In this document: piece after piece, positions 1,340 through 44,800 of the stretch
How positions within the stretch are numbered: the first letter of the stretch is position 1
Layout: the number at the start of each line of letters is the position of its first letter
Source of the DNA: Cloeon dipterum
Taxonomy: Eukaryota > Arthropoda > Insecta > Ephemeroptera > Baetidae
Length of the DNA: 64,000 nt
Assembly (NCBI RefSeq): GCF_949628265.1
Contig: NC_088786.1
Span: 22,279,681 to 22,343,680 of the forward strand
Reading direction: 5' to 3'
The notes under the pieces: generated by a model
What the model saw: only the letters and a program-made list of their open reading frames with translations
What the model was told of the DNA's origin: nothing
Databases searched by the model: none
Program-made: the position numbers and the translations under genes

Positions 1340-1694
1340 TTTTTTTTTGCTCTTTTTATCCCTGTTCTCTCGGACCGGGAAGGGCGCGCACCGCACTAGC
1401 ACGAATGCTGAAACCCGGGTCCCAATAACACCGCGAACGGATAACATGGGCGCACCGGGCCGCACAGGGACCCAGCCCACTATGAAGGGCCACTTGCCTC
1501 CGCACCGAGGACTGCATTGAAACGCTAGACATTCGTCCCGTGAAGCCAATTAAATCACGCATGCTGGAAAGGTGCAAACCATCAGCAAGAAGCGAGTCGG
1601 CGCCTCCCAGCCCGTTGAGCAATTTGAGCATTTCGAGTCACTAAACTAACCACTTTTTGCCATCTCTGACATTAGGTAGCCAGTATTAGAACTC
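1340..1694 (-). repeat. SINE-like repeat copy A (poly(A)-tailed, reverse orientation)
   Basis: Read on the minus strand, this begins near 1694 (AATACTGGCTACC), passes through CAGAGATGGCAAAA and GGTTTGCACCTTTCCAGCA, then a GC-rich body, and ends in GATAAAAAGAGC plus a run of A at 1341-1349. Nearly the same body, with the same A-rich end, recurs on the plus strand at 8957-9203. The shared 3' tail and compact size of about 355 bp suggest a non-autonomous retroelement. I could not recognise a tRNA, 7SL or 5S head, so the SINE class is unassigned. Open frames here on both strands are repeat sequence, not genes. Borders are approximate. Confidence 0.7.
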
Positions 1695-14912: not shown

Positions 14913-17900
14913 ACCCGAGTGGCTGCAGAGGAGCTTGTGCCCACTTATTAGAGCATCTTTTCGCCTCTCCGCTCTCCGCTCTGACCTTTTGATTGAGACA
15001 CCAGATTCGTACGTAAAGCCGCTAAAAAGTGGCGAAAACCAGCAAGTTCAATGACAAAGCAATTTTCCACGAGTTTCCTTTGTTGATTATGATTATCGTG
15101 ACACCGCGGCCCTATTATGTACTTTTCCAAAAATGGTTTCGGCAGTTAAAATTTTTAGAGCTTATTTTTGTCTCCAAAAACGATCAGCTCACACATTGGT
15201 TTCCAGACCTCGTGGCAGAGCAGCACCATGAAAAATGTACTTGGATTTATGGATCCAGGACAAATAAATCATTTTGTTTAATGATCGGGAAAAAAACGAA
15301 AGGCTGCAATTGAAATCATCTGCGCCATGTCCACGATAATCTGCTGCTCTTTATGTGTTTTTGTTTGATGATGCATTGAGAAAGATATACATAATAGCTT
15401 CAGCTGAGTTATTCAATAAAAAAATACAGAAGCGCGGGGGTGATCACGATATGACCTTAAACGTATAATAAAACCAACAGCAGCCCATGGATTTATATAG
15501 AGAGAATAAGCCACTTCAGCATATTATTGTACGACGTGTGTTCTGCACTTGCCTCCAGTCCATCTGTGTAGTGTTATTGTAATATTGAATGTATTATGTA
15601 TATGCGGGCAAAAGAATGCAGGGCAGAAATCTATCTTTGCTTGCTTTAAATATTGAAATGAAAACCTCCGACACTTCTTTAACTTCTGCCAAGTGCACAG
15701 TACAGTTCGCCAAGCCTCGCTACCGGTATAGCATGCATTTGAAAAAATAAACACAGAGACATTTTCAAGACAACAGCTAATAGAAATTTGATATTTCCAA
15801 CAAAAAGTGCTCATTACTTAATTGTGACACATAAATTATATGACTATATGTAAATTAAATTAAAATATTATCTTCGCCTTAATTACAGACAGAAATTAAA
15901 AATGTTCGAATGAACAGTAATCTTTTGTTGAGCCTAATTTTTCTATAAAATTTTAAATTAATATTTGAGATTTATCTGGTTTCTTGATAGATACCATTTG
16001 AGGCTGAAGAAGGTGAAATTGTCATATTTTTTCACTTGAAATTAAATGCAGTCTCCTCTGTGTATAGCGAGCTGTTGATTTTTCCTATTTTTACAGAAAC
16101 GTCCTGATCAGCTATATAGTTATCCTCAGGAAGCTCATGCATTAAGGGTTGCAACAGACCTTCCTGTAGAAATTCGAAAAAAATAAGAAAGCTCGCTACT
16201 CTCCAAAGTAGCTACATTTAATTATGATTTAAAAAAATACACTTCGTTATTAAAGGAGGCAGCTCTCGGATCCCCTTATTCTATTTCTCAACTCAAAATA
16301 CCTCTAACATGTAAGGATTAACTATTGCCACATTCGTGAGAAAACTTAATCAGTTCACCAACACCTTCACAATATGCGAGGGTTTAGAAACAATTTTTCT
16401 ACGCAATGAAAGTGTTAAAATAGTTCCTTATGTAATAGACCATGGTATTAATTAAATGTCTTATTAACACGAATTTTTAGTTTCGTGCTCTATAAATTAC
16501 CGTCTACAAGGTAACTGGCATTTTAGCAATATACAATTCTCTCATTCATTTTGAACAGAAGGTTGGAATGTGATTTATTTTTTGACTCATCTTCGTATTG
16601 AACTGTCTTGTATAGAGTAATGGAGAATCCGGGTGAGTCGAATTTAAGATAAATATGCTTTAATTTCATGGGCTTCACGGGTTATTGACAGTTCAAAAGC
16701 ATAAAACATATCACCCACATCGCTTGTTGTGCTATACTAAATCCTCATCCCCTTTTGTAGAATACCACCATTTGTATTATTTTCAATATGGGATGCACGA
16801 AGTTTTGTCGCAGCACTAAGGGGTGCATTTTCATTGTTTGAGAGTTCTAGACGCCTACTGTACAAAAGATGTTACACACTACCTGTGTGGCGTAAGGTAA
16901 TAGCTTGATTACAAAAAAATTCCAGAGTCGTGTGATTTAATGAAAAGACAAGCTTGCACTTTATTAATCGGCATGCAATGTGCATAACTCTAGAAACAAC
17001 GCACCTGTCTCGAGATAAAGGCATGCCTCTTTCTTATCAGACCAGCCTCTCTAAAATAGCTCCTGTTTGCTTGGGATTTTCCACGCATCGGACTTTGATC
17101 GTGCTTAAAGCCGCATAAAACCAATTGGTATATCAACACGATTTAATAGTGATTCACATTGCAGGAAGTGAGAGAAAACAGAGATGCAAGATAATCATTT
17201 CCGTTCTAATTGAAATACTTGCCTGCTAAAGATTAAAAACAGCAGAATCTACATATGTGATCATCTTTCCTCATTGTCAAGCCATTATGACTTTTTCTCG
17301 CATATTTCTTGAGTGAAAACATCAAACGCGCCGATAAAACCAACATGCAATAACAATCAATATCGAGCGCGCGCTGTAAAAAGTTAATTAGAACTAGGCA
17401 CAAGACTTCTTTGGTCTGATAATGACACCTGAGATCTTTTTTTTCAATTACCTTTTTCCGCCCGACAAAACAACATAACTGAGTGACTAGTAAAATCAGA
17501 ATTTGAAAATGAAAAACAATGAGAGGAAATCAGAATAAAATCACAGACGCGCCTCTGTGATTTTTTGCGTATATTGCGCAATATACGCACTTGAAAGTTT
17601 GTTCTTCAAGACTGAAGGAAGCAAGGTGCGATGGGATTAGTCAAAGAAATTATATTTTTTATGCTTTTATTGTTTTATCCGGTTTTGTCCTTTTCATACC
17701 AAACTCCAAACATGATAAATATATTAATTGTCCTGCCCTTTTGTTATAAGCCAACAATTGTCGGCGATTTGAATTATTGTAATTATGCAATATTTTTTAA
17801 CAGCAGAAATATGAGTTCACGCTATTTCTGCACTATTAAATGACCCGCATCAGCAACGTGGGGCTGACGGGAATTCTCATTTTCAAAATTATCTTTATGC

Positions 17901-19185: not shown

Positions 19186-19258
19186 GGACTTAATATTTCG
19201 CTCCGGACTTAATATATACATAAAAGGTGGCCTATTTGGAGTATATAATATCACTCTC
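19186..19258 (+). promoter_or_regulatory. Core promoter of the secreted-protein gene
   Basis: A TATA-like box (ACATAAAAGG, 19219-19228) lies about 30 bp upstream of an initiator-like TCACTC at 19251-19256, giving a probable start of transcription near 19253. A second AT-rich box (TATATAATA, 19242-19250) overlaps the start region. Just upstream the 11-mer GGACTTAATAT occurs twice, at 19186-19196 and 19205-19215. The predicted 5' UTR of about 108 nt runs to the ATG at 19361. Confidence 0.55.
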
Positions 19259-19360: not shown

Positions 19361-22300
19361 ATGAAAGGTAAGGCTTTTTCCCGGAACTTTCACACCGGCC
19401 GCCGGAGCCGGCTGCTCGATTCTCCATATAGTCGCGGTTAGACGCTTAGCGTAGGTCAAGTGCCAGTTGTTGCACCACATTGAATTAAAATCGCGCGCCG
19501 CATTTACTAGGATGCTGCGATACATTTTTTCAAATTTGCCTTTGCTTATGAATTCAGACTCGCTAGTCTATGATTTAAATTAGGTGCTATGCACCAAATT
19601 GCTTCTGTGACGAGACGTAAAAGTACTGATGCGCGTTTTCTTGTACTTTGAAACCTTTTATGCTAAATCAATTCGTTGGAAAAAATTTTACAAGCTCCTT
19701 CCTGCTCTAGAGTTGAAATTTCCTTGATTATAATTTAATGCTTTTCTAAATCTGAGATCATTTCCTGAATTGTGGAAAAAGTAGTCTGTCTATAGCTAGT
19801 GAGATGTACCTAGCTGTACACATTTTAATGTTTAATAAATTTAATGCAGCATCGACAATACTTTACTAAAAGCTATATAACAAGTTTAATACCTTAATGA
19901 TTTCTGTCTGATTTATCATTTTTTCGTCTCGGGTGCTCATCAAAATTTCAAGTTCAAGGTTTTGATGATCATCTTACAATTGATAAGTGTGATTTCTAAA
20001 TCACGACAATATTTTTTTAATTCTTGTGTATTCGGATTAATTTGATCTCAATTTTTGAGAGAGCGCTTTGTTTTGATTTTCGAAATTCATTTTGCTGAAA
20101 ATGTCTTTTTAAATAATTCATTTCGTTCTTTCACGCGTCACATTTTAGCTGCAAAATTCTCTCTCGTGTGCTTATGCTGGCCCCGTATTTTGCCAAGCCA
20201 TATACACACGTGCTGAACTGGTCAGCGTGCGCTTATTAAACCGTCTGGCCATAATCAGCACATTTTGAGCCTCCCCTGCTCAATCTAGTTGGCTACAGTT
20301 TAGCATAATAAAATGTTATGCACAAAGTTAGCACACATTTATTTGGCGGAGGTCTATGGGTTTTTTGCGATTTTCGTCTAAGTTTCTTCACTAAATCGTC
20401 TTCTTTTTACACAAGTTATAAATCCCTACTTGACGTTTCTCAATCCGGCGTCAATTCGCATATTTTGGCCGAAAATGCCAAGGTAAACGCTCGCGCCACT
20501 AATTAAATTTGGTGAAAATTAAATATGGGTCAGCATTCCTGTGTCACAACCTGCTTGTTTTGTATGATCCGCGCAGAGGCGGTTGAAGGCAAAGAATTTT
20601 GTCGTCGACGGCACGTTGGCGAGACGCTTTTCGTTTTTAATTACTCGTGACACTATATAGTCGCGGGTAATTATGAGCACATTATACGTTTTGAAACGTC
20701 GAATTTCGTCTGGTCATTTTTCTCCTATTTCGTATGAATTGCCAGATTCAATTAGGAAATTACCATTGCGAGCACGGCTTATTTTAATTAAATGGCCATA
20801 ATTTTAATTGACCCCGCGGCAATTAGTGTTTTGTTGTCCGGGCGCAGAATAAAATAGCTGCGCAAACCTGTTTGTTTTTCCTCTCTCTTATTCTTTGCAA
20901 AATAAGGGAATTTATAATGCTTGCATTATGATGTTTTTGGTAAAAAATTGCTCGCCGCGCATGAAATATAATAAGCCGACTTAAACTGTCGTTAACTTTT
21001 CCGACGTCTTCTCGTGAGATATGAGAAAATTGGTCAGAAATATCCTAAATATTAACTTCAAAGCAAGCGAAAGATTTTTGTCTCGCAAAACTGGTTGCAC
21101 TCTCGTATAGTTATCATATACGGGGAAAGCAGTCTGCCGATAAGCCTCCCATTCACAACTCGCATCGATGATTAATTCACTCACTCTGCGCGAGGCTCAC
21201 CGAGCGAGAGGTCTGAGAATCGAGCTGCCAATTCTCAAGAAAACGCAACGCATGTACTTATAAATTACTACACAGTGCTACGGCTGCTGCCTGTCTCCGT
21301 CCGCATGCAGCGCGAGCACATTTTAAAACATCTGAGTGACTCATGCAAAGGTCGCCCATGTCGAGAAAATCCCAGTCAGCAAAAAATTCATTCTGGACCG
21401 CTTTCTTGCGCGCTCATAGCTGTCTGTTCTGAGTCAATAGAAAATCAGGTAGACGCGAGGCTCCTTTGCAAATTAAATAAGTACGCCCACACGGATTCGG
21501 CAATTAACACATGGTTTGAGGTTTGAATGAATCATCACTCCGGGATAGGCTTCTAAATGGGTTTAAACAAGCGGTATTTTACCAAAATTCAACGCTTCAT
21601 AAAGATATGTAAACACTCAAAAAGCACTTAAAGACGCTTGACAAAACTCTTGGCTGTAGGTTGAAGCTATAAATACTTTTGCATCCATTCCGTCCTTCTA
21701 TCTGGATTCCTAATACTAGAGTTATTTTATTAAGGTCGGATTAAAAAATTAAATGATTATAGTACATAATACACGCTTCAAAAGTTCCTGACACTTGCTC
21801 AATTTAAAAGTGGGATCAGAATTTCATTCACAAACACTTATCAGTAATCTTAATTTTGTATATCTTTGGTTTATCTTTTAAATCTTAAACCGCAGATACG
21901 TTTTTAACTGGCATTCCCTAATAACCCCCGCAAGTGAACGACCATCAATCGGGGCGATGAAGTGGAAATAATAGTTTTGGATGGTTGAGAAGGGGAGGGT
22001 AAAATTTCATTCACGGTTTTCCTGTCGTTTGATTCCACTTTACCAATTTATACACTCGGAAAGTGACACCTCTGAATAATTAGAGAAAGATGAAACACAC
22101 GAGATTATTTGACACTGCGCCAACAATAAAAAATACAAATAACTGCGCCAATGCCGATGGCACACAACTTGCGGCGGCGAGTCTCGCGCATAAAATACGA
22201 AATAGATAAAGCGTCTGGAGAGAGGCGAGAAAAGCTGCTCGTTCGCATGTGCAGGTAGAAAATCCAAATTCCGTCTTTTAAAATATGTTAACATGTCGCG

Positions 22301-22492
22301 AGCTAATTAATGCGCACTTGAATTTTCTCCAGTCGGCAATTTTATGTCATTATTAAAGCGACAAAAGGATCAGATCCTCTTGACTTAGAATATTCATGTC
22401 TGCCGGCCTGGCTCTCTTGCAATATTATCTACAGACTGTTTGGCACCTTTCATTGGGTGGAATACAAATGAGCACAACTCCTTCAAACTAAC

Positions 22493-22539
<47 letters not shown>

Positions 22540-25500
22540 GTTTTATTTGCATTGACTCTTTCTTTCTCACTCTCTCGGCTGCGAGCTCGCACAGACAGCA
22601 ATATAAAACAGGATTCTCTCTCATCCTGTTGACAGGTGTGCAATTCAACGATTTTAGAGCTATTTTGCCAGAATTGACAAGCGAACATGAATTTTAAGAT
22701 CAATCATTGCGACGCAGTTTACTTTGTTGCTTGCGTGACTGAAATTATTGTGCAATTTGTCACTCTGGAGGTAATCGGAATAAATTATATTCCCAGCCAT
22801 AAAAACTTACATGAGACAATCTGGCAGAAACTTTGTTAGTGAAAACTCGCCGAAGCTTTAGTGCCAAAACAATCCAACGCGCTCTCATGTGATGAGATCG
22901 GCTGCCATTGAGTCATCACCAAGAATGGCAAATGAATGAAATCGCACTTTTTTACTAGGATAAAAATAGCTGGGACAGAATACAAAACAAACTTGGATAA
23001 ATCAAAAGGAAAAAAGGTCCAGCTTATTAATTCACTTTCCATACACATTAACTTAAATATTTTCCATAAACTTGAACTAGCTCTAGATAATGTGCCAATA
23101 ACAATATTTTTTAATTTATCAACTTGCTCAGCTCTGCGCGGATCAATTCAGGATGGATAGCTATTAGCGAAATTTAGAGAGGAACAAGTAAATGATAGCT
23201 TCTCGCACTATTTCCTCTTTAAATTTCACTAATAGATGTCTACCCTGAAATAATCTACACACAGCCGAATCATTTTATTAATATTCTTAAAATTCATGTA
23301 TGTCTATTTATTTTTTTCTGTTCTTAAATACATTATTTTAACCATAATGAGTTCCTCATGCTTCTCGATTGCTCTGCGAGCGGGTACGGACACACATAAT
23401 TACACCGCATCTAATAACATAGTAAAAACAGTTTTATGTCCATAAAAACACATGTTGTCTGCGCACGATATAGGTTAAATAACAATAAAGAGTATAATGC
23501 TAGAAATGCAACTGCGAGATGAGAAAGAGATGCATTTGTTAATAGGAAAAGGCCGCTGCTCGGCTCGTGGCATAATCTATTATTCCTCGCTGCACTTATT
23601 ATTATTTCTTACGTAAGCAATATTATATGCATCCCTGAGCAGACGGCAGCAGTCTATTAAAAAATCGCCGAGTGTATTATGTGCGCCGTTCGATTTGTGT
23701 GTTTAATTATTTCTAATGTGTGCAACCCAGTCGCCCACATTGCGCGGGGAAACTGTGCCACAAAGCAAGAGTCGTATAAATTTATTGCTCTAGAGCGATC
23801 TTTTTGTTTCTACCGAGCTCGAGGTTTGGACGTTTACACCGCATAGAACGATTAAATCTTTCTAATTGAATACCACTTCATGGGCAAAAATTTCTGTCTG
23901 GAGAAATCGGAGAGGGAAAACGGCAGTCGTAATTTGAATGATTTGTATACGCGTTGCTTGCTTGGAGAGTTAAATATATAGGGTTATCCGTGTTCCCCAA
24001 CGGTGAAACATGTTAAGAAATCTTAAATTTTAATCAAAATATAAGAGTAAAGTTATCTTAAAATTCTCCGCACAGGGAAAGCCATTTTGGAATCATGTTG
24101 ACTGATTGTTTCTAATCATTTACTTTCTCCAAATTTATTTTTAAACGTGATTTGAAACACCTGTTAGGTTTTTTTTATATAGCTTCTATCAAAGTTTGTT
24201 TTTAGTCTACGAAGGCGTCTAGCAGCAACATGCATAAATAGTGCGCTTGTTTTGTTTGACTCCCTCACAAAATAATAGCAAAACATGCTGGAGCTGTCTT
24301 TATAAATTTACTGGGCGAGCGCTAAAAATCACTCTTTGCGTCCAAATTACCCACATTATTCGGCACGTAGGACACGCTATTTAATAAAAATAACTCTCGC
24401 AATTTACCACCTACAAGTGCCAGTTCGGAAAGAGAAAATTTTAATACGTCGCGGGCACACATGTGTGTACGAGCAGCTCTTTATACACTCGTGCCACCTA
24501 CCACTCATGCATCGAGGAGAGTCAGAATACATTACCTGCCGGCTCCAAACAACCGCCGCGTCATCGTCCGGTCCGCTCTTTTTTACCTGCCAATTGTTCA
24601 TTTTATTGAGTCTAGCCAATTGTCATAAATCTCACCGTAATAACCCCTGGCATAAATAATAATACACATGCTGAAAGGCCAGATATTTGTCGAAAAAGTG
24701 CCGGAGTGGTGAGAAAAAAAAATCCTGATAGAGGTGTGCATAAGGGTCGTGTGGAGACACAATGAGGAGCGCGGCGCGGCGGCGGCGGTAAATCCAGACA
24801 AACAGACTTTTCATAAATCAAACCTGGCATATTTTTATAAAGAGAACGACCCATCACAGTTAAGCGAAAATAGCGGCCCACACCGCTTTTATGTTTTACA
24901 ACATCCTCCCCATTCTTACCCATTTCAACAGCGCAGATTTGTCTACCGAAAAGAATTGTGTTAACACATATATTTGCGTTCCTCCCACGTGCGGCGCTTT
25001 TCTCGGATCGTTTTTATTTAAAATTTCCAACTGAAATAAACCTGTCTGATCAGAATTTCGCTACTAGTGTTGTGCACTTATGCCGAGACGAACCTTGTAA
25101 TTAACCTGCGCCATTTTGAACCGCGCGCTCTCCGCAATCGCGGAACGATCTCGGTGGAAATCACGGCACAAAACCACCAATAAACACACAATAACATTAT
25201 TACATGCACCTTTTGTTTGTCAAGAAGCAATAACTCAGGCGGCGCGCGGCGCAAATTGCGCCCGAGCGCCTTCTATATAATATACTCGCGCGGTGGAACA
25301 CACCTTACTTACTCTTAGCCGGCAATAAAGCTCAGGCAAGGCATCAATAATTTATCCATTACCGTGACACAACACGGAATGGATTGCTATAGGCCGCGCG
25401 CGAATGCACCACCTCTCTCGGTTTGGTGTGTGAGTGTGTACGCGCTCAATGAAAGGTGCATTCGGAGCTCATTATTTTCGCCTGGTATGGACGAGCACGC

Positions 25501-28500
25501 TCTCCGCGCGGCGCAGCATCCTCTGCATGTGGCCTCTCTCGGTCGGGCTTATTTATGAAGACGTTGTAATAATTCAGCGGCCGCCGTGTGAGTGTGTTAT
25601 TACGCGCGGGGCGATTAAGCCCCCGCGCGCAAATCTCCGTTGCATGCGGTTCTCACACCGACATGCACCGCGTCTCCTTTTTTACGACGCGGTTTGCAAT
25701 TCCAGGAGACGATTTGCATTGATTGTTGCAATGAATTAAATTGAATGCGTGCAGCACACGGCGTTAAGATTTATTCAGGTTGTGCGATAAAGCGATAAAC
25801 TGCAGGACGCATTTTTTTATTAACTGCCCATTTGTCGCGAAAGAGAGTAAAGTTTATTTCGATATAATGATGAAGGCGAGAAATTTTGAGCAAGACGCGT
25901 TTATAGAGCACGACACTGAATGAATTCTTGAAATGCTTCCAAGCCTGCTCGAATATTGAAGCGCTCATGCAGTGGCCGGTTTGCCCAAGTCTTACTCACA
26001 TTAACAGCTCAATTTGCACTTTTATTAATTTATTGCTATGCGAATGCTGATTGGCCAGACCTCGCGCAGTACCTGTCTGAAGGTGCGTGGACGCCCCCAA
26101 AATACCTGCCTTTCTCGTCTATTAGCATTGTTCGCAATATAAATATTCATGGTGAAATTCGCTTCTCCTTAAGAGGTTTCACAATCTCGTTTCTCCTATT
26201 TTTCACCAAAACTATCACAATTTGCGGCTGTTTTTGCCCTTAAGCGCATCTCTTTTTCACAAATGCTCGCGCGACTGGTCCTCTCCTATATAACTCGTCT
26301 CGGCCGAGAGAATGCTTTATTATTATGCCGTCGAGAGTGTGTATGGGAAAAGCTGCACGCATCATTAAAATGTGAGTGATTCTTTTTTCAGGCATCAGTC
26401 GTAATAAATTGAAGGTTGTAACAAGAAAATAATAACTATCTCCGGTGGTCCTTTATGATATTTTCTCTTAAAAATATTCGGCCCAGGTCAAAGGGTTACT
26501 TGGCCTGCTATTTTACGGCCCCGCGCTTGATACATTTGCTCGCAGAACTGGTGCTGATGAGGTTCAGCAAAAGATTTTCACTGTGCCAGTGCTTTATGAC
26601 GGGGATAAGAAAAGGAGCGTCTTTTATTCATCTTCCCTACCTATCTCGCAGAAAAAAAGCATTCCACGGAGAGATATGTTTGTAAAAAATTAATTTTCTC
26701 CCTATGAATGAGTAAGTCAAATTTAGCCAAAATTTCTGTTTCGAAGGAAAATTATCGCGTGCATCGGGTCTATTAACAATTCAAACTGTTGGACATAATA
26801 TCGTACTTCCCCTTTCAACGCGTCGATAGGATTACCAGCGTTTGGTTCATCACAATATTTGCACAAGCAATCGTGCTGGTCAAACGAACACGCCACGAGC
26901 CAAAATACCCATACGTGTGTGCGTCAACAGAGATGTGCCGCAAGGGAATCCCTGTTTTGCATAATTAAGTGCAACGACCTGCTTTCTTTAATACTCGACA
27001 AATTTGTCCACACTGGCTGTTTTGGAATTTGCGTCATCGGACTTTTTTTCAAACAAAAGTTTAGAAGCTCGGTTTACTTTTGGCAGACCTGCAAACTCGG
27101 TGGAATGTGTGACGGTGGGCTGGTCCTCCGTCTCAAGAAAAGGGTCGCACGCTTTTCTACCGCGCGCAGCCAGTACCTGGAAAATAACATTAAAATAATT
27201 TTTCAAATTGACATCCGTGTGTATGTGTGTGTGTTCTTCCTCTGCAGCAGCTGGCAGAAATCTCTATTGTTGCCGCTGTTGTGGAGCGAGCGAAGAGGCA
27301 ATTAAACAATCATTACACATATTTGCCTGTTTGCTCCTCACGGCAGCTTCATCAGATTTGAGATAAATAAAATTATAACCCGTTAAACTGATAACGCGCT
27401 TAACAGTTTGTCTCCGAAATTAATGGTCATGAAGGAGAGGATAGAGAAACAAAAGTAATTAATTTTTTACGACCCGCCGGGGCAAGAAAGAAAAATGCTG
27501 CCTAAGATTAGAGAAGGGATAGCACCAAACGGAAGCTAAATATTACTCCTTTATTTTACACGGCAGCAAACATAATATCTTTCGAATCCTCCAAGTTTCT
27601 CCAGTAGTTGTCTGTAAACTGAGCGAATAGCAACGACGCAGCCGCGGTCTCTATATATATATTACCTATTAGACGAGATCCCTAGCACGCGATGCTAAGC
27701 CACCGATTTTTAATAGAAACATCATCATCGTCAGGTGAAGCGCTGCCGCGGCAATTATTGATAGCCTTGCGAACCTCTCGCGGCTAATTAGAGAACAAAA
27801 ATTAATAACCGAAGGTTTTCACGATATTCCTTTTCCTTTCTTGCAATCAGCAACTTAAAAGTAATTAACAAAAGCGGGTAAAAAGTGAAAATGTTTCTCT
27901 TCATATTCTGTCAAATCATAAATCATTTTTAAAATCACGTCACATCAAATTAACTAGGTTAACTATATTTTTGGCTTTGTGTTTCAGTCTCCATTGTCAG
28001 AGTTTGCGCCAGCTTCCTGATGCTCATGGTGGTCGCAGCCCATACGCTCCCAACTACCACTACTACTACAGAGAGGGTCGAATCTGTAAAAAAGCAAAAG
28101 CTAAGAAGATTTTGGTGGAGTAATCCATGCGGTCATCAGGGCGATCATTTTCCCCATGTGTCACGTAATGCGTCCAGAAAAAAGGATCATAAAACCGTAA
28201 ATGAAACTGCAGTGGTGATAGAACTAGAAATTGCGCACAGCCATATCAAGGATATTTTTAACAAAACTACGGTAAGTTTTGTCATTACTTTCAGCTATTT
28301 ATAGAGTGCTTATTTCTCTAGACAAAGTAACAGAAAGGTCAATTTTTCTACTAAACTAACGCTTACGATCCCTACTTGATATCATTAATGCACGAGATTA
28401 TCAACTTCGGTTATTATATTCAATAACTCATTTAGTATAGATTTCACCATAGCTTTTTTAAGTTATGTATTTGAGCAATTTGCATCTTTTACGTTTTCCT

Positions 28501-30224
28501 AAAATAATATTTTCATTATCTATTGCATGGTCTTCTGACGCTATTAAACACTCTTACAGAATCGGACACAAAGACTCACTGTCAATTACGCGCTTCTAAC
28601 TAAAATTTTTATGACGATGGAGGTGTAATCACTGATTTGTTTTCATTGGTTGAAGTTGAGATTTGTATTTTTCTTGACATGTTTCGGCTCCAACTGGCGC
28701 CCAAGTCATGAGGGGGTCCTGACACGTAGACCCTCAGGTACAAACTCGACTTCAACCAAGAGAACAAGTACGGCTATTTCTCCATCATCAAAAATGCCTC
28801 TCCTAAGTGAAAATAACAAAAGTTGTATTTCTAATCATATAAAAATGATAGTAATTTCGCAAACGATGTATAAAATTTCTAATCGTTTGGTCTCTTTCTA
28901 GGTAGCATTTCCAAACACGGAATTGAATTACCCTTGGCTGCCAAAAGCGGACGAACTATTAAAACAGGTTACAAAACGAAAGGTAGTTAATAATAGCGTT
29001 TTACCTCGATCCATTCTAATACCGGAAACTTTATCCTGATAATTAGATTACACCTGCTTTTGCCAAATTTTATAAAGGACTTATGAAATTTGCCATCACT
29101 ATTGAGTGCTTGATGAGAGGAGAAGAGTGCGATAACTTTCGCAAAAGGCACGGTCTGCCCTACAGGACAGTTGCCGAAAATGACGCACGGAACAGGGTAC
29201 TTGCGGAACTCAAGGGAAAACTACGAAAGGTAATAATTAAATTCTGAAAGCCCAACTAAATTGAATGATTCATATATAAAAGTTAGATCATTAATTTGCG
29301 ATACATATTTCACTTCACAGTTTCCAATAACTAATTCAATTCAATTCAAACTTTATTTAGCTTGTGTGTTTACTATAGATCAGGTGGACTTCATCTCTAT
29401 AATGCAGGCACCCACTTGCAAATTCACACAAATAATGCATTCAACAAAATAACAATAACATCTCTGCATGCGCTTACAAATCTTTGACATAAATTCTATC
29501 CATTAACTCATCGCAGTATATACATTTTACTTTGAATTTGTGCAATAAGCTTGAAAATTCATTGAGTCAGGTCAGAGTTCGAGACCTAGACGGAACGAAA
29601 TATGGGCAAGGCATTTTGGTTAAAGAGTTCAAGTTTTTGGAAAACAAACTTGTCTGAGGCGGCACATATTAACTCAGGCTTTGCACTTTGCAAGCGTATT
29701 GTGATCGTGCACGACTCTGCGGTTTTTGTGAAGTATTGCCGATAAAATCATATAGAAGAAACAGTAAACAACTCTTCTTTGAACATCATAATATTAAAAT
29801 CGATGATCTTAACAATAATGATTTTGAATACAAAAATTTCTTTGGATGAGATCTAACAACAGAATTTAACCAATTGAAAAGATATTTCTAAAAAAATGAA
29901 AAGAAACTCGTTACTAAAACTATTTCTATTTGATTGTTTCAGCTGTTATGTGAAGTTAACGATTTCCTTTGGACGAGAGTTAAAAAGCTGCCACCGGCAC
30001 CTATCAATTTTTACTCTATCGATTTTAAATGGCTTGAAGAAGTGGACGGATCGGGAACAACAAATATCAAGCATGATTATGTGGTATTCAAGACGTACTT
30101 CGAATACTTGTCTAAATGGGTACACTTGACAAAAAAGCTAGCGAAAAGAGTGCTTCGGCAACATGCCGGCCATAAAAAAAACAAAAGCAGTAGAGTGCAA
30201 AAGTCGAAAACTGTTAAAGTCTAA
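19361..30224 (+). CDS. Secreted helical protein, possible orphan cytokine (7 coding exons)
   Basis: Coding exons: 19361-19367, 27988-28271, 28560-28622, 28730-28807, 28902-28982, 29047-29229, 29943-30224. The model gives about 325 residues. The first exon codes only ATGAAAG before a GTAAGG donor. Joining it in frame to exon 2 creates a signal peptide (residues 1 to about 22, MKVSIVRVCASFLMLMVV). Next come a six-Thr run (25-30) and a WWSNPCG motif (45-51). Sequons lie at N63, N74, N94, N98 and N140. Mature cysteines are C50, C192, C199 and C235. Amphipathic helical stretches lie near 77-97, 101-117, 175-195, 215-250 and 275-303, followed by a Lys-rich tail. Small phase-0 exons and a long helix near the C-terminus recall class I helical cytokines (the insect Unpaired type), but I found no decisive motif. 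All junctions are GT-AG except exon 4/5 (see findings). TATA promoter upstream; convergent with SPTLC1. Confidence 0.7.
19368..27987 (+). other. 8.6-kb first intron of the secreted-protein gene
   Basis: The donor GTAAGG follows the 7-nt first coding exon; the acceptor TTTCAG precedes exon 2 at 27988. No coding exon of another gene is supported inside; frames such as 26859-27305 are not protein-like. The 3' half is patchily GC-richer than the surrounding DNA. It holds TATA-like strings at 25274-25282 (TATATAATA) and 26287-26293 (TATATAA), which could be alternative promoters or enhancers, and a GT/AT microsatellite at 22493-22538. Confidence 0.55.
22493..22538. repeat. Compound GT/AT/AC microsatellite, self-complementary
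   Basis: About eight GT units run into about eleven AT units, then a short ACACAC block. Because (GT)n is complementary to (AC)n and (AT)n to itself, the tract can fold as a hairpin. Short ORFs crossing it on both strands are artefacts. Confidence 0.9.
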
Positions 30225-31729: not shown

Positions 31730-34700
31730 TTAGAGTTGGATTTTGAAAACACTCTCTGCACAATTCTTGAGGGTTTTTACTGCGAATTCGATTTCATTCT
31801 TGGACAATAAGGCATTAACTGTGACCCGTATGCTTGGCTCTGGCAGATTCACTTCTCTATCAGACAGATATGCAGCAGTTGTCAATGCTAGGCCAGCCTC
31901 CTCACACTGCGAATCAGAAGTAGACAGATTTGAGCAACAATAAAATGTAAATTTTGTTATATTTTTTGTTTAAAGGCATCATGATTGCTTTTTTTTAACT
32001 CCTCACCCAATGATTCTCAAGCAGCGTAGGAACCAATTTATTTACAATTTACAGTCTATGCCATTTACCATTTTATTTAAGAATTAAAAATAATCCCTTC
32101 ATGTTAATCACACTACTTGACCTAGTTGATCTTGTCATTTTAATTTTTTAGTGCATGATCAGTATAGAAAAATTATTCATTTGCAGAAATCACGCTTAGT
32201 GGAAGAAACAAGCAATAGATTGTAAGTTAGTTTGATTTATTTTCGTGAGCAATTTAGCCTTCTTGGGTTAAGTCTTTAGCGAGTCACGATGCTTAACTTG
32301 TCTCACCAAATTTAAACCATCACTAAAGAAGAATGTAAATGGTCATTATCAATGTTCGCCAGTTTTGCAATGCGCAAAAAGGCACCACAATTATACATTA
32401 CTCAAAAATAGCAGCTGAAAATTGCAGAAAAAACATATGCAGGGGGATTTTCTAGTAAAAATGCAGGTCTTTGCAAATCCTGATTATGCTTTTTTACGCA
32501 AAAATACGCTTTAAGCAAATTGTGGTGACTGAGTTCTGTTTTGTGTCTGCAGGGAGTCTCTCATTAGTCAGTGGAGTTTTTAAAAGGCTTGAATCATGAA
32601 TCATTTAGGCGCAAAATGTTTAGCACTGTGCGAACTGAGGAACTGTAATCATTGTACTTTATGTGCGTTAAGATACAACTTGCGCCGCTGAAGAATTGCA
32701 AATATGTCAATCTTACAATTGGATTGGATTTGAATTAATCAAGTAAATAGCTTTTTTTTAATTGTTTGCCCAATTTTTCAAGGTGGACTTAATGGAGTAG
32801 CTTAAATATTGTACATTAGCTTTCACTAACTGATTCTTATGCTAACTTTTAACCACTAGCTCAAATAAATCAATTTTAAGTTTTTCATCATTTAGGATGC
32901 GACTCTGATCACCATCAATCCTAAAAGTTTCTGATGCGTGCCGATTATAAAGACAAATGACCAAGTCTCAAATTATTCAAAATAAGTGATTCCCTACCTC
33001 TTCGACAATTTCATTGAGGAGTTGTTCATCTGCGACCTTGTCCCCAGATGGATTGGCAAGGCGAATATGTTTGATGACAGACTCGGGGTGACCGTGCACT
33101 CTCAGGTCTGAGGGCAGCTGGCTGCTCAGCTGAGAGTGAATAAAGGTAGAGTTGTCTCTGAGTGTCTGGAAGATGGACGGATCTCTCTGCATGATGTCAA
33201 GCGCGGTAATGGCAGCAGCCATAAGAAGAGGAGGCGCAGAAGCAGAAAAGCAATATCCTGAATAACGGAATATTGATAACGTACTGAAGGAACTTGAACT
33301 GAAACATTTACCAAGACCAGAGAGCCTTTGATGTTCAATGATAAAGTGTGAGCCGACGCAAAAGCCTCCAATCGACCCGATCGAGTTTTCCAAACTTCCC
33401 GAAATCATGTCCAATTCAGATGGATCAATGTTAAAGTACTCGGTGAGACCATGTCCGGTCTTGCCAATGGTTCCAAAGGAGATCGCCTCGTCAAGGAAAA
33501 AGCGCAGCTTGTACTTCTCTCTCAACTCAAGCAGTTTTGGCAGAGGAGCCATCAACCCCGTGTTCATGTAAATTCCCTCAGCGACCAAGAATCGCCGTGT
33601 CCTCTTAGCCTTCTTTGGATTCTGTTTAGATATGACATTTTGCATTAATTGATTCTCAATTTAAGGACAGGTCTACCTTTCTGTCCAAGTCCGCCTGTTC
33701 CATTAGCAACCGCTCGAGATCCTCCATGTCATTGTGCTTGAAATAGTTGATCTGGCTTCGAGAAGCGTCTAAGCCCTTTTGAATGGCAAAATTCACCATT
33801 TCGTCCCTGCAATATATCTTGTTATCACTTTTAATCTCATATTAGGTTTGCCATACACAAATATCACATCAGAGCGCTTAGCATAAGCAGGAATTGCACT
33901 GGCAATGGTCGAAAATCCATAAGAATAGACAACAGCCTCTTCACACTTCATGTATTCGGCCAGCTTGTCTTCAAGATCCAAATGAACCTCTGGAAGATAC
34001 AATTGATTATAACATAAACACTAACGCTTGTCAATTGTAATAGTCATACCAGTTGTCCCGTAAAATCCTCTGGGCCCACATGATCCTACTCCATAATGAG
34101 AGAGGCATTCCAGGGCTGACTTCTCAATTTCAGGGTTCTCAATCATGCCAAGATAGTTGTTGGTTCCAAGGTTCAGGCAATTCCGCTCACCAAGCTGGAT
34201 GTATTTTCCAACCTACAACAAAGTTCAAATAGTTGATATTCAATGTTCAGACAGTCAAATTTAAATCCTGATAACTACAATATTTTCAAATGAAAAATTA
34301 GAATCTATTTTAAGGATTACTATAGATTATTTGTCATATTCGTGACATTCATCAGAATAGAGCAAAATAAAAAAAAAATCAGAGAGTATACAATTTTATT
34401 AGACACCAACGTTTTGCGACTTAAAACTTAATTAGATGGTCTATAACAGGTGTATACAAAGAATTACTGAAATGCTGAACTATGCACTCTCTCTAGTCAC
34501 AAGCACATGTGCAAATTGATGATAAAAATACAATTTTAATCTCAAGGGAATTTTAAAATGTAAGCATAGGCTGAAAATTTTCTGGTCACTCATTCCACTT
34601 TGAGATTTATTTCCTAAATACATCATTTAAAAAATTGTGCAAACCTTTAATTTAGCAATTATTGTTTATCCCTTGAAAAGTAATCCGAACACATAAGGTC

Positions 34701-37326: not shown

Positions 37327-40300
37327 ATGCTGGACGTCGTCATCGTTGGGGCTGGAGCATCTGGGGTGGCTGCAGGCACCAGGCTACTCCGGGGCGGAAT
37401 AACCAATTTTGGTAAAGATCAAAATTTTTAGTTGAACATACAATTATAGTGTCTGATAATATTGCAAAAGTTTTTTTTGGCTATCAGAAATTACGAGCAA
37501 ATTTTTTATTTTCATAAATGAATACTCTCAATAATTTATGGGTGGAACTAATCGCACCTATATTATATGTAGATGCGACTTTGGGCTGAAATAATCCTAA
37601 TTAGATGCGAATAGTGGAAGTAGGTCACGGCAGACAAGCCTATTTTGACAATTTTCATTGTAATCCTGGAATGAATGTTGCAAAATTTCATCTCTAAACC
37701 ATTATCGAATTAGTTGCGAATTTAGGGGCTGCAGGGTTGTTCCATGATTTTATTCTATTCGCATCAAATTTTGGTGCACCTGAATTTAGGCTTGAGTATT
37801 AGCTATTATTATTCATAATTAATTTGACATCTCAATATAATATGTTGATATTTTGTGTTTTAGTGATATTAGAAGCAGAAAACCGGCTTGGAGGACGAGT
37901 TTACTCAACTGAATTCGGTAAAAGATAATGATAATTCTGCATTGCAGAATGATTAATCATGTTTCATGTTGTCTGAAACAGATGGATGTACTGTCGATAT
38001 GGGTGCCCAGTGGGTGCACGGCGAGCAAAATAATGTCGTCTACCAGATGGCAAGTGACCGCGTTTCGGTCGACGAGCAGATGAGCAACTACGCATCGGCA
38101 GAGGTGTTTTTGGAAACTGGCGAAAAGTTTGATATGGGTCTTGTTTTCCTATTATACTCGTGGATCGGCGAAATCGAAGCAACCATGCCCCTGAAGCTCA
38201 AAGACTTCAAAGGCTCACTGGGTGAATTTTACAATCAAGAGTATGGATTAGGAGAATTTTTTAAATTGGATTTGCTTATTTTTCTATCAATCTCATACAG
38301 GTTGTTGAAAAGAATCAAAGAACACCCAGAGCCTCTTGCTGAAAATGATGTCCGAGCTTTTATGGAATGGTTTGAGAAGTTTGAAAACTCGATTGATGCG
38401 GCAGACTCTTGGTTTGACACTTCAGGCAAGGGTCATTTAGCCTACGTTGATTGTCCAGGAGAGCTCCTCAACAAGTGGAATTCTGGTGGCTACTCCTCGG
38501 CCATCAAACTCTTGATTGTAAAAAGTTAAGGTCCTGAAGTAAAAATTTTTGTTTTGACTTTTTTTATTTCAGGAGCAAACAAAGCAAGTTGAAGAATTCA
38601 ACAAAAAAGTGGTTCTGAATTGCGAAGTGGAAAAGATTGATTATTCCAAAGGTCATGTACAAGTGTTGTGCAAAGGTGGGAATGTTTACAATGCCAAGAA
38701 AGTTATCGTGACAGTCTCGCTGGGCGTTTTGAAAGAAAGGGCATCTACCTTTTTTGCCCCGAATCTGCCACTGTACAAATTAAACGCAATTAAGGTTTGT
38801 TTACTCATCACAAGCAACTACACCAGGCTTATCTTTATTACAATCACTTAAATTACACAGGGGCTAGCAATTGGCAGCGTTAACAAAATTTACATGAGTT
38901 TTCCACATCGTTGGTGGCCTGATGAAGCCCCTGGTTTCTGCTTCTTTTGGAGCCATTCTCAAGATGATCTTCCAAAGGAAAAGGTCTGCTGCTATTCAAA
39001 TTATGAAAAATCTTTAGGCAAAGCAATTTCTATAGAAATGGCACAGAGGCGTATTTGGCTTCTTCCCTGTGTCCAGTGCCCCAAATGTCTTGTGTGGCTG
39101 GATGGTCGGCCCTCTGGCCAGGCATGCAGAATACTTGCCGGACAATGAGGTGAAGAGTGGGTGCATGGAGCTGCTTAGAAGATTCCTTGGAAAGAAATAC
39201 GCAGTAGTTGATTGCACTGAATTCAAACGGTACCTCGCCCCTGATCTCTACTCTATCTTTGGTTATTGTACTGTGCGAATCAATTTTTTTAGGACCCAGT
39301 GGTATTCCAATGCTCATTTCAGAGGGAGCTATTCCTTCCGGAGTATGCAAACAGAGCAGCTGGATACAGGTGCAATTCACCTCGCAACTCCAGTTACTAA
39401 TTCAGAAGGAGCTGATGTAAGTAGTAGCTTCGTGCCTATTAACTAACAATTTTTGACAAAAATTTCTTGTAGGTTTTGCTCTTTGCTGGAGAGGCATCTC
39501 ACCCAGACTATTTTTCAACCGTACATGGAGCCATTGAAACAGGATGGAGAGAAGCAGATAGAATTTTAAGAATCCAAAGGTATGGATACAATTAATTGTT
39601 TTAAACTGTCCAGGATAAATTAGTTCCTTTGATTTAAGACATTTGGACTTGGACTCTGCCCTTTTGAAGCAGTTTGATGTGATCATTGTCGGTGCTGGTT
39701 TCGCTGGTTTAGGAGCAGCAAGGACTCTTCACAAAGCTGGATTGAAGAATTTTACTATATTAGAGGGTAGTTAGTTCATTTCTTCTAGAATTTCAAATAC
39801 ATATGTGTTCATATTTAGCTCAAAATTATGCTGGTGGCCGAGCACACACTGTTAGGTGGGGAGATGGGTCGACCTTTGTTGAACAAGGTGCCCAGTGGAT
39901 TCATGGGGAACACAGAAATCCTCTTCACAAAATAGCAATGGACTATGATTTGCTAACTAGCGTCGTTTCATTTGAAGGCTTAGGTAAGGCATTAATGTGT
40001 GCTACAATATTTAATCAGTTAAAACAATATTAAATCGGGTAATTTTGCCTGATTACAGTTAAGCTTATAAATATTTCAAGTTACTTTATCTTTGCAAATT
40101 CAACTCAGAATATAAACAATCAAGTACACGGTATAAGACTGATCATTTTTAAATGAATTAGGGCCTTATATCCTTGAAAACGGAGACAAAGTTGATCCGG
40201 CGCTGGTTCGTGAAGTAGCTACTGAAGTGAAAAAAATTCTTGAGAGGTGCGAGAGTTTTGCTGATAAAGGATGCCAGGAATACCCACCGTCAGTCGGCCA

Positions 40301-41621
40301 CTTTCTGCGCCAAAAGTTTTATGCCTACATTGATAGAACGGCTGTCGATGAAAACGACAGACAAATCAAAGAGAATTTGCTGGACTGGCACCTGCGATTC
40401 CAAGTCATTGACAATTCCTGCCGCATCCTTGACGAACTCTCTGCTAAGTCGTGGGGCGACTATGACAACTGTCCTGGTAAGGACTGCAACAACCTTCAAA
40501 ATGGCTACTCCTCTCTGGTGGATGCGATTGTTTCGGAGCTGCCCAAGGACGCCTTGTATTTGTCACACCCCATTGACACCATTGTATACCAGACAAATTT
40601 ATCCAAAAACAATATTACGGAAAGTCTTGCTGGTCAACGCGGAAGTAAGGAAAAATGGAATCCACCTGTGATTGTGACCTGTGAAAATGGAGCGAAATTT
40701 GGCGCTCAGTTTGTGCTTGTCACATGTTCCCTGGGTGTTTTGAAGAGCTGCCATAACAACATGTTCTTGCCAGCCCTTCCCAACAGCCTGAGTCAGGTAT
40801 GTTTTAGTTAATTGCTCAAGACGGAATTATCATTTTTAACATCATTAATTTTACAGACGATTCAAAATTTTGGTTTTGAAAACATAACTAAAATCTACTT
40901 GAAGTATGAAGAAAGATGGTGGCGTGAAGACGAGTACGGATTCCAACTGGTGTGGTCTCGTGATTCCTCAATTCTTCCAGGGGTAAAACTTCATGTTACT
41001 AAACAATAACTGAAATTTAAAACCTTTTTGTAGGAAGCAATCTGGTGCAAAGAAATGACTGGCTTTGACATTATGCCCAGCAATTATGGCAATGTGTTGC
41101 TTGGTTGGGTGGGATCTGAGAGTTCCAAGATTATCGAGAGTATTTCCGAGGATCAGATTGCTGCTGATTGCACCGAGGTGCTGAGGAAATTCCTGAACAG
41201 AAACGTTCCTATGCCCAAAGAAGTATTCAGGTATTTCATTATTACTTAACACCTAGTCGCATTGATTGAAATATTTAAACCAGGACACAGTGGCACAGCA
41301 ATCCATACGTTAGAGGTTCCTACAGCTTTTCCTCTGACAGGTGCGATGAGTCTTGCTCCAAACCAAGTGACTTGCTCCAGCCTGTGATTGCAAATTGCGC
41401 AGAGCTCGATTTGGAGGTTTGTATTTAATAAAAATGTTTAGTAATTTTGTTGCTTAATTCTTAAATACTTGTAGATCCCAATCGTCATGTTGGCTGGTGA
41501 AGCAGCACATGATAGCCATTTCTCAACTACACATGGTGCGTATGAAACTGGAGAAACTCAGGCAACTAGAATTTTGCAGGTTCTCAAGCAGCAGCAACCC
41601 CAAATTGTGTCCAAATATTAA
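37327..41621 (+). CDS. Tandem spermine/polyamine oxidase, two FAD amine-oxidase domains in one CDS
   Basis: Exons: 37327-37411, 37864-37917, 37982-38240, 38301-38517, 38573-38794, 38861-38983, 39036-39229, 39293-39416, 39473-39579, 39639-39766, 39819-39983, 40162-40796, 40857-40982, 41034-41230, 41284-41416, 41475-41621. Total 2916 nt, 971 residues. Unit 1 (about 1-461) has IVGAGASGVAAG, LEAENRLGGRV, GAQWVHGE, VNKIYMSF and LFAGEASHPDYFSTVHGA. Unit 2 (about 462-971) has IIVGAGFAGLGAARTL, GAQWIHGEHRNP, ENITKIYLKYEERWW and MLAGEAAHDSHFSTTHGA. These are the dinucleotide fold, substrate wall, conserved lysine and FAD-closing C-terminus of SMOX/PAOX enzymes, which oxidise spermine or acetylated polyamines to aldehyde and H2O2. 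Both look catalytically intact. Unit 2 has no start codon of its own and is joined to unit 1 by a 59-bp frame-preserving intron. The C-terminus (VSKY) is not a standard peroxisome signal. Confidence 0.88.
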
Positions 41622-41892: not shown

Positions 41893-44800
41893 TTATGATG
41901 CTTGTTGCTGAGGCATGTTGTGCTGTTGTTGCTGCCTCTGCATCCTGATTCGCCTCTGCACGAGATGACATCTGAGTGATACCGGGTTGGCGCGAACAGT
42001 TTTCACCTTGGGATCTCCACGTGGGTTTAGAACGATGGGTGGGTTCATTTTGGACAGAACATCTTGGATCCTTTCATGCAAAGTCAGCAAAGAGTTATCT
42101 ACAAAAGGCATTTTGACTTCCTCAATTGTGTCTGTGGAAGAAGGCGGTTCTGGCAGCTCCTAGGGCACAAAAATTTAATTTAGCGACAGCTGCATTTATT
42201 GACTTACTTCGAGTGTAATGAGGAGAGAGAAATCAGAAATATCAGTTCCTTTCATGGTTTTCTCCAGTCTTCGTAACACATCCTCCATTATCACATAAAT
42301 TTCCTCATATGTCCAATAGGAAAACATGTTAACTTGTCTGTGATTTGTCTGAAATATGATAAAACAAGGAGTTGCAATCAACTTTCAGATGATCAAATTA
42401 AAAATTTTTACCATTTGAGGCGGATAAGCAGAGTTCAGCCGACCTGCGTTGTAGGCATCCAGCGCAAACTCCAAATTTATCTTACGCAATCTCTGCACAA
42501 CTGCTCTTGTCGTTCTCTTATCTAGGCAATTGGGAGCGTCTCTCATTTCTTTCCAAAGTTGCAACACCAATTCCAAATCATTGTTGTTGAGTAGCCGAAC
42601 CATGAATGAAAGAGTATTTTTGGGGAGTTCTGGAATTGAAAGAATACTTAGTGCTGAGCGTTTCTAATTTCACCAGATATATACCAGAGGGGATGTTGTT
42701 TGTGAGGCAAAACTTCAGTTTTGTATCCCTGGCATGAGTCCACAGTAAAAGAGTTTCTTTGTATTTATGCTCGTTCAAAGAATTTTCTATTAAGAGCTCT
42801 AACACATCAAGCAAGTCTTTTGATCCTCTTGAACCAGTGGTCTGTTGGAACTCTACAAAGTTTGTTCGATGTTAAAATATCCCTTTATGATTTTTACTAT
42901 TTTAACTTACTCTTCAGCAGATCATATGCTTCTGGTGTGTGTCCCATTCTGAAGCACATCTTGCAACTTTTAAGCAGAATCTGTTCCAAAGAAATAGGTG
43001 AGTCCCTGTAAGACGTAACATTGTCCCAGTTGAAGTGGGTCATGCTCTTGGTAGTCAAGTAGACAGGTAGAGCTTCATTCATACAGTCTTGGTCAACCAG
43101 ATCGAGCAAAATGTTGATCCCAATGGTGCCGAGAAGATTGTGAAATTTTTGCGCCAGTCCAGCTTGTGCAGTTTGAGCATTGCTTTTGACTGAAAAATAT
43201 TTAAGCATAATAAAATTAACGTATTTCCTTAAACAACTATGAGCATTTACCACTAGCATAAGATGCAACTTTCAGAAAACCTTGGCTAGGCCTCTGCATC
43301 CTCTCCTTTAAAATATTGTACAAAATTCGCCCCCGGGGCAACTTGTCACCAGGATGTCTCAGAACAATTGAAGTAACTCTGGCAAAGTCTTCAGATTCCA
43401 CAGCTCTCAACAATCGCGCAAACAAATCACGAATCAGTTCCTGTAACATACATAAAATTGGCTTATGACTTGAATCGTTGTTTTGTCGTTTGTGTAAGTC
43501 TGGGACTTAATTTCTCTATGGCTAAAATTTGAGTTGATGGTAATTTTAATCACACACACATAAATATAAAAGAAAATACTCACGGGCTTGTCATGTCCAA
43601 CGCAGAGCACCTTCAATGATTCAGCATTGTGCTCAACATCGAAGGGGTCATCCAGCTCATCATCAGCCTTCTCAGAAGGACTGTACGGCCTGCTCATGTC
43701 TACTCCACTGATCAAAATTTCGTGAGGCATTGGAGGTGGCTGAACAGATGTTGGTGGAGGCGGTGGTATCTCTGCTGGTACTTCTGGAGGCAGGGGTGGC
43801 AAAGGAGAAGCTGACGGAGGCAAGGGAGGGTTTATCGACCGCTGCAAGGGATTTGGAGGCGGAAGAGGAGGTTTTACATCAAGTTTTGACGGAGCAGCTG
43901 GGGACTGTGTAGATGCACTTTTGATAAGGGTTGGAATTTGCCTTCCAAATGCAGCGGAAGTGGGTGGCGCCCTGCCAGACTTGGTATACAGGGAAATTCT
44001 GTCAGACTCCCCGCACAAGTAGGCCAATTCATGGATGACACCCTGGAACAATCAAGTGGCGATGGTTTAAAGCTTGGCCAAACTAAAAGAGTAAATGCAG
44101 ATTTTTTTACATTTTCTTGTTCCTATGTGATAATTTTCTTCATAAAACTTAAAAAACAAAGATCACATAACTTTCCTCAATGAAATAGCTCTAAAGCATG
44201 AAATGTAAAACAAAGGTAATAATTTTGTTCAAGACGTTACATTCAATGTGTCATGTCAAAAGTTAAGCTGTTCATCTTTGATTACTTAATAATTTAAGCT
44301 GCTAGTAAACTTGAAAACTTATTAAAAAACATTAATTTCAAAGCTGTTTTTTAAATACCTTTAAATTTTAAAATAAACACCAAACAAAGACCAAGTCCCA
44401 GTATGATAGCATAGAAGAATGATTACCTGTTTGAAACGATGCCAAACACTGTCAGGCACATTTGCTACCAGAATCTCCAAGGCACGTTTGGTCCAAGGCT
44501 GAATTTTGTTCAGTAAGATGTGCTCGATGAGAGGCTCTACGATACTCTTATGAGCAACGAAATCTCTGTCTCTGAAAAGTTCATTCAGCACCACATGCAC
44601 GTGCTGGTATGTCCTGATGCTGAGCCGAGCAACTTCATTCCGCAGCATCAAAGTGCAAGTTCTGTGGCCCATGACGTAGATTAACACTCTTTTCAACTCA
44701 AAGGCGTTGTCATCTCTAATTGCGTCAGCGACTTGCAAGAGAGCTTCTACTAGGCGAGACCACCAGTAAGGCCCAAGTTCATCTTCACGGTACATGACTT

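Follow-up and report, generated by a model that had tools for sequence, protein, structure and literature searches.

Does the mayfly Cloeon dipterum carry a gene for a JAK/STAT ligand that similarity searches do not recognize? The question is raised by a 64,000-nucleotide stretch of its genome (assembly GCF_949628265.1, contig NC_088786.1, positions 22,279,681 to 22,343,680 of the forward strand; hereafter the window), in which an earlier reading of the letters by a model (the sequence-only reading) had singled out a gene for a secreted helical protein as a possible orphan cytokine of Unpaired or class I type. In this work, we find that the sequence at this site is that of a real five-exon gene, and we propose it as a previously undescribed candidate for the JAK/STAT ligand that has gone unrecognized in several insects.

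The gene lies on the plus strand at 19361-30224 of the window, on a contig of 43.2 Mb (C1). The genome, searched as a whole, has 190.1 Mb in 10 contigs. The four introns are each GT-AG, with phases 1, 0, 0 and 0, and the exons measure 7, 284, 81, 183 and 282 nt, exons 2-5 being open in frame up to the stop codon at 30224. The product has 278 amino acids and not the approximately 325 first proposed, what shifts the earlier helix numbering by about 45 residues. The small phase-0 exons of the sequence-only reading hold for introns 2-4, but intron 1 is in phase 1. In codon statistics, 39 of 2000 null segments were as good as exon 2, 63 of 2000 as good as exon 4 (for which one alternative frame scored slightly above the used frame) and 19 of 2000 as good as exon 5. 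Exon 3 taken alone was not significant (285 of 2000).

We consider 19361-19367 a likely placement of exon 1, although not a unique one. This exon contributes only MK plus one base, and it is exon 2 that encodes the hydrophobic core of the signal peptide. Within 15 kb upstream there are 140 ATG-to-GT phase-1 mini-exons (up to 67 nt), five of which have donors matching at least seven of nine positions, including one at 25449-25455 that gives an identical peptide; the best donor score (8/9) is common to 19361-19367 and 16620-16632. The join of 19367 to 27988 over the 8.6-kb intron, which had been said to produce a signal peptide unlikely to arise by chance, is upheld by the open GT-AG chain, but the chance argument was overstated, because the core lies in exon 2 and upstream mini-exons are many. 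Similarly, the TATA promoter that had been claimed does have a TATAWAW match at 19242, but the 1.6-kb promoter region has three such matches against an expectation of 1.98, and the element is weak alone.

When the product was searched against its own genome, seven matches were obtained: four to itself, one to a paralogue and two that we took as noise. Exon 5 of the paralogue is located at G000:C1:5816706-5816945 (tblastn E 1.2e-5, 44%) and its exon 4 about 0.5 kb upstream. Joined, and with exon 4 aligned from its second codon, these exons are 35% identical to the window protein (51 of 144 aligned residues). Their local alignment scores 178, and none of 2000 shuffles scored above 61. The identity at codon positions 1, 2 and 3 is 58%, 60% and 46%, respectively. 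The paralogue keeps three of the four cysteines (Cys145, Cys152 and Cys188) and the phase-0 intron between exons 4 and 5, and intron 4 ends in tttgattgtttcag in both genes. Given this similarity, the codon-position pattern and the kept intron and cysteines, the two sequences indicate a genuine protein family to which exons 4 and 5, at the least, can be assigned. No third copy was found when the genome was searched with the paralogue protein, which returned the same two genes only. The matches taken as noise were C2:20076360 (E 0.30), with three stops inside when read as DNA, and C5:28792421 (E 0.63), set aside on its E-value and one internal stop.

Exons 1-3 of the paralogue were not found, exons 2 and 3 having been sought in about 21 kb upstream. 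The best exon 3 candidate scored 25, against 30 in a reverse-complement control. The best candidate for exon 2 (37 against a control of 29) was rejected, as by eye it had neither signal peptide nor helix A. These absences, the non-unique exon 1 and the exon 3 that is not significantly coding on its own would suit a false or dead gene, either a pseudogene or open frames that line up by chance. Such an explanation seems to us very improbable, given the paralogue, whose alignment far exceeds the shuffles and is better conserved at codon positions 1 and 2 than at position 3, and the open frames of exons 2-5.

A very young long terminal repeat (LTR) retrotransposon, whose two 323-bp LTRs show a single difference, occupies positions 1134-6068 of locus L008 (G000:C1 about 5811133-5816067). 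It lies, with TTAG on either side, where the acceptor of the paralogue's intron 3 is presumed to be. If the TTAG at L008 6065-6068 is the acceptor, exon 4 of the paralogue has 62 codons (61 in the window gene); the duplicate of TTAG would give this acceptor its AG back.

The protein of the window gene starts with MKVSIVRVCASFLMLMVVAA, which, judged by eye on the joined exons, makes a good signal peptide, with a probable cleavage after VVAA. The mature chain would start at residue 21 and have 258 residues, a mass of 30.2 kDa and an isoelectric point (pI) of 9.99. Cysteines outside the signal peptide are found at 50, 145, 152 and 188 and sequons at 63, 74, 94 and 265, and the C-terminal tail is Lys-rich. 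The predicted secretion, the four mature cysteines, the multiple N-glycosylation sequons and the basic C-terminus of the sequence-only reading are thus all recovered.

We set the limits of the helices by eye, on Chou-Fasman smoothing and the hydrophobic pattern. The proposed order is helix A (~73-97), a long link containing a short helix (exon 3), helix B (127-156), a short link, helix C (~165-199), another long link and helix D (231-262). For helices with limits set in this way, this succession of long, short and long links is that of the class I cytokine plan. Helix D is amphipathic in the window protein, with a best angle of 98 degrees (35 of 2000 shuffles as good). In the paralogue 59 of 2000 shuffles were as good, and the mean of the two sequences gave a best angle of 100 degrees (11 of 5000). 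The protein is likely helical, with helix D as the one helix that passes the periodicity test. A long amphipathic last helix had indeed been noticed before, but it spans residues ~231-262 and not 275-303.

Subject to exon 1, the gene has the plan of a long-chain class I cytokine gene: five exons, phases 1-0-0-0 and a tiny first exon. In class I cytokine genes the first intron is generally in phase 1, and human EPO, with exons of 13/146/87/180/156 nt, has the same phases as the window gene. The sections of PMC5473850 on EPO give five exons, the third of 87 nt (coding nucleotides 160-246) and in phase 0 on both sides; they also describe long A-B and C-D loops, the former with a minihelix towards its end. 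For G-CSF, the relevant part of PMC6389648 describes genes with five exons and four introns in carp, human and mouse. It is this layout in the window gene (tiny first exon, a 27-codon exon where an A-B loop would fall, long A-B and C-D links, and the phases) that suggests a cytokine.

Comparisons of the whole protein, expressed as shuffles as good per 1000 in local and global mode, gave 69 and 101 for EPO, 30 and 3 for IL-6, 893 and 150 for growth hormone, 326 and 388 for leptin, 33 and 906 for G-CSF, and 554 and 437 for myoglobin; the printed local alignments to IL-6 and EPO were not co-linear. When exons were compared one by one in order, under three gap settings, 1-17 of 1000 shuffles were as good for IL-6 and 14-20 for EPO, against 801-860 for growth hormone and 430-495 for myoglobin. 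An earlier run with fuller exons and 2000 shuffles gave 0.003 for IL-6, 0.0285 for EPO and 0.845 for growth hormone.

The likeness to EPO raises the idea that the product is an erythropoietin-type cytokine acting on CRLF3, an orphan class I receptor of insects that is activated by human EPO. Exons 3 and 4 (81 and 183 nt) are near the 87 and 180 nt of EPO, and in exon 3 VAFPNTELNYPW can be set against ITVPDTKVNFYAW of EPO exon 3, with p 0.009 for that exon. This motif match is post hoc, however, and the other exons of EPO gave 0.997, 0.0745 and 0.375. Moreover, exon 3 of the paralogue was not found and the cysteine positions of EPO are not matched. We regard an EPO-like ligand of CRLF3 as improbable here. 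The part of PMC8063046 that deals with CRLF3 gives it as a receptor with no known endogenous ligand.

On the receptor side, we found a gp130/Domeless-type gene at G000:C5 ~11.505-11.510 Mb (L020/L023; about 11505000-11510100). By eye, it comprises a signal-peptide exon, an Ig-like exon, a C-x9-C-x-W motif, a C-x10-C pair and fn3-like segments; the C-x10-C exon presumably resembles gp130 D2. In the PDB, the Ig-like part with the first receptor piece matched CRLF1 (1.8e-7) and IL-6R beta (1.9e-6) most closely, and class I cytokine receptors made up the top 22, and 23 overall, of the 30 PDB matches of the receptor piece at E<=1. All 12 Pfam matches of this piece were below the cut-offs, and the identity of the receptor rests on the PDB matches and on the domain order judged by eye. 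The class I receptor motif, as presented in a portion of PMC1963337, is matched in part by C-x9-C-x-W and C-x10-C.

The genome search with PF09240 produced four matches below the cut-off (E 0.018 to 0.29), of which three were read; L020 (E 0.032) was accepted, and L019 and L021 were unconvincing by eye. With PF09067 there were two matches, the accepted receptor (below the cut-off) and another at C5:11396361 (over the cut-off). The latter (L024, G000:C5:11396361-11396480, minus strand, EpoR_lig-bind E 2.5e-4), about 110 kb from the receptor, is doubtful and was not counted as a receptor because no obvious C-x-W is present in its reading frame. Further down the pathway, FERM domains of a JAK are encoded at C5:4.35 Mb (FERM_F1 2.6e-8) and a STAT at C4:22.4 Mb (1.6e-23), both over the cut-off. 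Domeless, hopscotch and STAT are also reported for a damselfly in the part of PMC5381652 concerned with this pathway.

The idea of a cytokine gains plausibility from the class I-like exon layout and from the co-occurrence in one genome of a JAK, a STAT and a receptor of gp130/Domeless type. The basis in hand consists of the gene model (exon 1 being likely only), the signal peptide judged by eye, the paralogous family, the intron phases and the receptor, JAK and STAT genes. In our proposal, the product would be a secreted, basic cytokine with a putative four-helix fold and probable N-glycans, perhaps held near its source by the basic tail. It would bind the gp130/Domeless-type receptor, its presumed partner, and bridge receptor chains, after which JAK and then STAT would be switched on. 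We put the chances at about even that the window gene encodes such a candidate Domeless ligand, with a presumed four-helix fold, that works like Unpaired and IL-6 and starts JAK/STAT signalling. A broader proposal is that IL-6/EPO-type and insect ligands descend from a single cytokine gene older than the protostome-deuterostome split, and that the window gene, a Domeless ligand and the counterpart of Unpaired in an early-branching winged insect, has kept the vertebrate long-chain class I plan; this we hold to be doubtful.

Several results weigh against a ligand of this kind. Pfam, including Unpaired (PF15972) and IL6 (PF00489), does not recognize the protein, searches of PDB sequences gave nothing credible and no match to EPO or any other cytokine, and hhalign of exons 4-5 against IL-6 reached a probability of 0.2% over 4 columns. 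The earlier expectation of a helical protein is supported by helix D, but helices A, B and C lack a significant 100-degree period in the window protein (291, 617 and 516 of 2000 shuffles as good), as do B and C in the paralogue (246 and 104 of 2000) and in the two-sequence mean (519 and 293 of 5000). Identical positions show no helical period either (B 2726, C 2837 and D 3714 of 5000), and Chou-Fasman alone calls strand for much of 187-198 and 228-245, that is, in parts of C and D. Phases 1-0-0-0 are not rare by themselves, with a chance of ~0.03 under common phase frequencies.

The exon-by-exon scores belong to the same side of the balance, being post hoc, obtained with partly provisional exon boundaries and uncorrected for several tests. 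With the paralogue added, they mostly weaken (IL-6 8-62 and EPO 13-45 of 1000). Among six printed pairings, the co-linear one scored 86 for EPO, against 94 and 87 for others, and was not the best; for IL-6 it was barely the best (101 against 97). As the scores are post hoc, mostly fade with the paralogue and are about equalled by permuted pairings, we take the likeness to IL-6 and EPO to be weak, a lead only.

How much should be made of the failed similarity searches? In a similar PDB search, human EPO reached its relative thrombopoietin only at E 0.49, so a failure of this sort is weak evidence; IL-6 itself weakly matches the IL11, IL23 and GCSF profiles, none of which is matched by the window protein. 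Outside its own genome, no search found a homologue. When the protein was run through hmmscan, entire or in pieces, Unpaired gave no match at E<=10, with HMMER filters that drop most weak matches. The Unpaired profile found nothing in the C. dipterum genome, but its control was empty too and absence from the genome is not established. Pattern matches in viral contigs (11) and in contigs of prokaryote genomes (79) included no confirmed relative, which says little because these collections are viral and prokaryote. Pfam matches to Exonuc_VIII (E 0.039), UvrD (0.049) and CSN3-like_C (0.19) were below the cut-offs and implausible for a secreted insect protein, and a match of the IL6 profile at C2:1602605 (E 0.29), with one stop inside, was taken as noise.

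The lack of a sequence link to any cytokine is also what would be seen if the gene encoded a secreted protein of another kind (for example extracellular-matrix, egg, seminal, salivary or hemolymph), from a lineage-specific, fast-evolving family whose class I-like layout is coincidental. The mature pI and Lys-rich tail are found in many matrix-binding proteins, the phases are not rare, and the evidence for helices is significant for D only. On the other hand, the tiny first exon, the loop-like exon 3 and the amphipathic last helix jointly fit the cytokine plan, and the genome has the receptor side with no recognized ligand, bearing in mind the empty control of the ligand search. A non-cytokine is a serious possibility, which we would place somewhat below an even chance. 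The orphan cytokine of the sequence-only reading keeps, accordingly, the layout and the receptor, JAK and STAT genes in its favor; no Pfam match to Unpaired or IL6 was found for it, nor support for an inducible promoter.

The earlier argument for an inducible promoter received no support: neither the 1.6-kb promoter region nor intron 1 contains a kappa-B site, and the numbers of STAT and AP-1 sites are close to those expected by chance. With expectations taken from window-wide rates, the promoter region holds one AP-1 site (0.38 expected) and one TTCNNNGAA (0.53 expected), and intron 1 holds three AP-1 sites (2.02 expected) and one TTCNNNGAA (2.83 expected). A perfect STAT-type palindrome, TTCCCGGAA (the TTCNNNGAA), is located at 19378-19386, starting at base 11 of intron 1 and beside the exon 1 donor. 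It is not significant by count, as 31 of 100 window shuffles hold one somewhere; its place beside the donor would fit autoregulation.

Features of the candidate ligand gene, in window positions
Feature	Position	Strand	Remarks
TATA-like element, 5' of exon 1	19242..19248	+	TATAWAW match; weak alone
Exon 1, ATGAAAG, phase-1 intron	19361..19367	+	Donor 8/9; placement likely, not unique
Intron 1, 8,620 nt	19368..27987	+	GT-AG
Exon 2: remaining signal peptide, Cys50, three sequons, proposed helix A	27988..28271	+	
Proposed helix A, residues 73-97 (limits by eye)	28197..28271	+	Partly helical in Chou-Fasman; amphipathicity not significant
Exon 3, 27 codons: proposed A-B connection with short helix LPKADELLKQV	28902..28982	+	Coding statistics not significant; paralogue counterpart not found
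Exon 4, 61 codons: proposed helix B (Cys145, Cys152) and start of helix C	29047..29229	+	Both cysteines conserved in paralogue
Exon 5: last part of proposed helix C (Cys188), C-D link, proposed helix D, Lys-rich C-terminus and stop codon	29943..30224	+	Paralogue exon 5, same phase-0 intron
Proposed amphipathic helix D, residues 231-262	30078..30173	+	Angle test; Chou-Fasman gives strand in first half

Downstream of the candidate gene, the window contains an aminotransferase class I/II exon on the minus strand at 32977-33660 (PF00155, 1.3e-7), by eye from a serine palmitoyltransferase subunit. Next, on the plus strand at 37957-40811, come two exons matching flavin amine oxidase (PF01593, 1.6e-4 and 2.1e-6), which by eye belong to a spermine/polyamine oxidase. 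Long open frames on the minus strand at 43434-49158, including a Lys/Glu-rich one of 625 amino acids, belong to a large gene or genes; the frames at 43437-44051, 44364-45296, 45310-45690, 46040-46876 and 47284-49158 had no Pfam match at E<=0.01.

A ligand in C. dipterum would bear on a gap noted in other insects. Published immune inventories, in the parts that list this pathway, did not find Unpaired in pea aphids and scale insects and say that it is missing in honey bees; Domeless, JAK and STAT are nevertheless present in aphids and scale insects, which have no recognizable Unpaired. The gap may not be general, since portions of a stink bug genome paper (PMC7071726) and of a mealworm review (PMC9292131) use once each the wording "upd-like" and "upd ortholog", respectively. 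Among the open-licence papers listed by our literature searches, we found no description of the present protein or of a mayfly Unpaired. In two Cloeon papers, the word "unpaired" has no occurrence in PMC11491810 and appears once, in the reference list, in PMC11597413. With a candidate gene, a paralogue, an exon plan and a receptor in one genome, the missing-ligand gap becomes directly testable. We suggest, as a search rule, a secreted protein encoded by five exons with phases 1-0-0-0 and ending in an amphipathic last helix, which could find the ligand where sequence search fails.

Among known systems, the Unpaired proteins (Upd1-3, PF15972), the JAK/STAT ligands of Drosophila, are like the window protein in being secreted by an insect whose genome has a Domeless-type receptor, JAK and STAT. 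Upd proteins are basic, glycosylated and bound to the matrix. The passages of PMC7378365 on Upd3 report it as predominantly alpha-helical. They differ in that PF15972 does not recognize the window protein, and in this comparison by profile no shared motif could be shown. The IL-6/G-CSF family (PF00489) shares with the window gene the five-exon plan, a gp130-type receptor in the genome and the weak co-linear exon similarity, but there is no Pfam match and the cysteine positions differ.

Erythropoietin has likewise five exons and an exon 3 of similar size (87 nt, 81 nt in the window gene) in phase 0 on both sides, and exon 3 of both contains a P-N/D-T-x-L/V-N stretch and a W. In contrast, the whole-protein similarity is not significant (69 and 101 of 1000), and the window protein is much longer at its N-terminal end and carries a basic tail. 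Class II cytokines (IL-10 and interferons) also have five coding exons and multiple helices, according to the part of PMC8863823 on their structure. A tiny phase-1 first exon is found among them too: in IFNL2/3, as described in a section of PMC2654155, a four-codon first exon ends in a phase-1 intron and the remaining introns are in phase 0. With this exception, class II introns are usually all in phase 0, whereas the first intron of the window gene is in phase 1 and the receptor found in its genome is a class I receptor.

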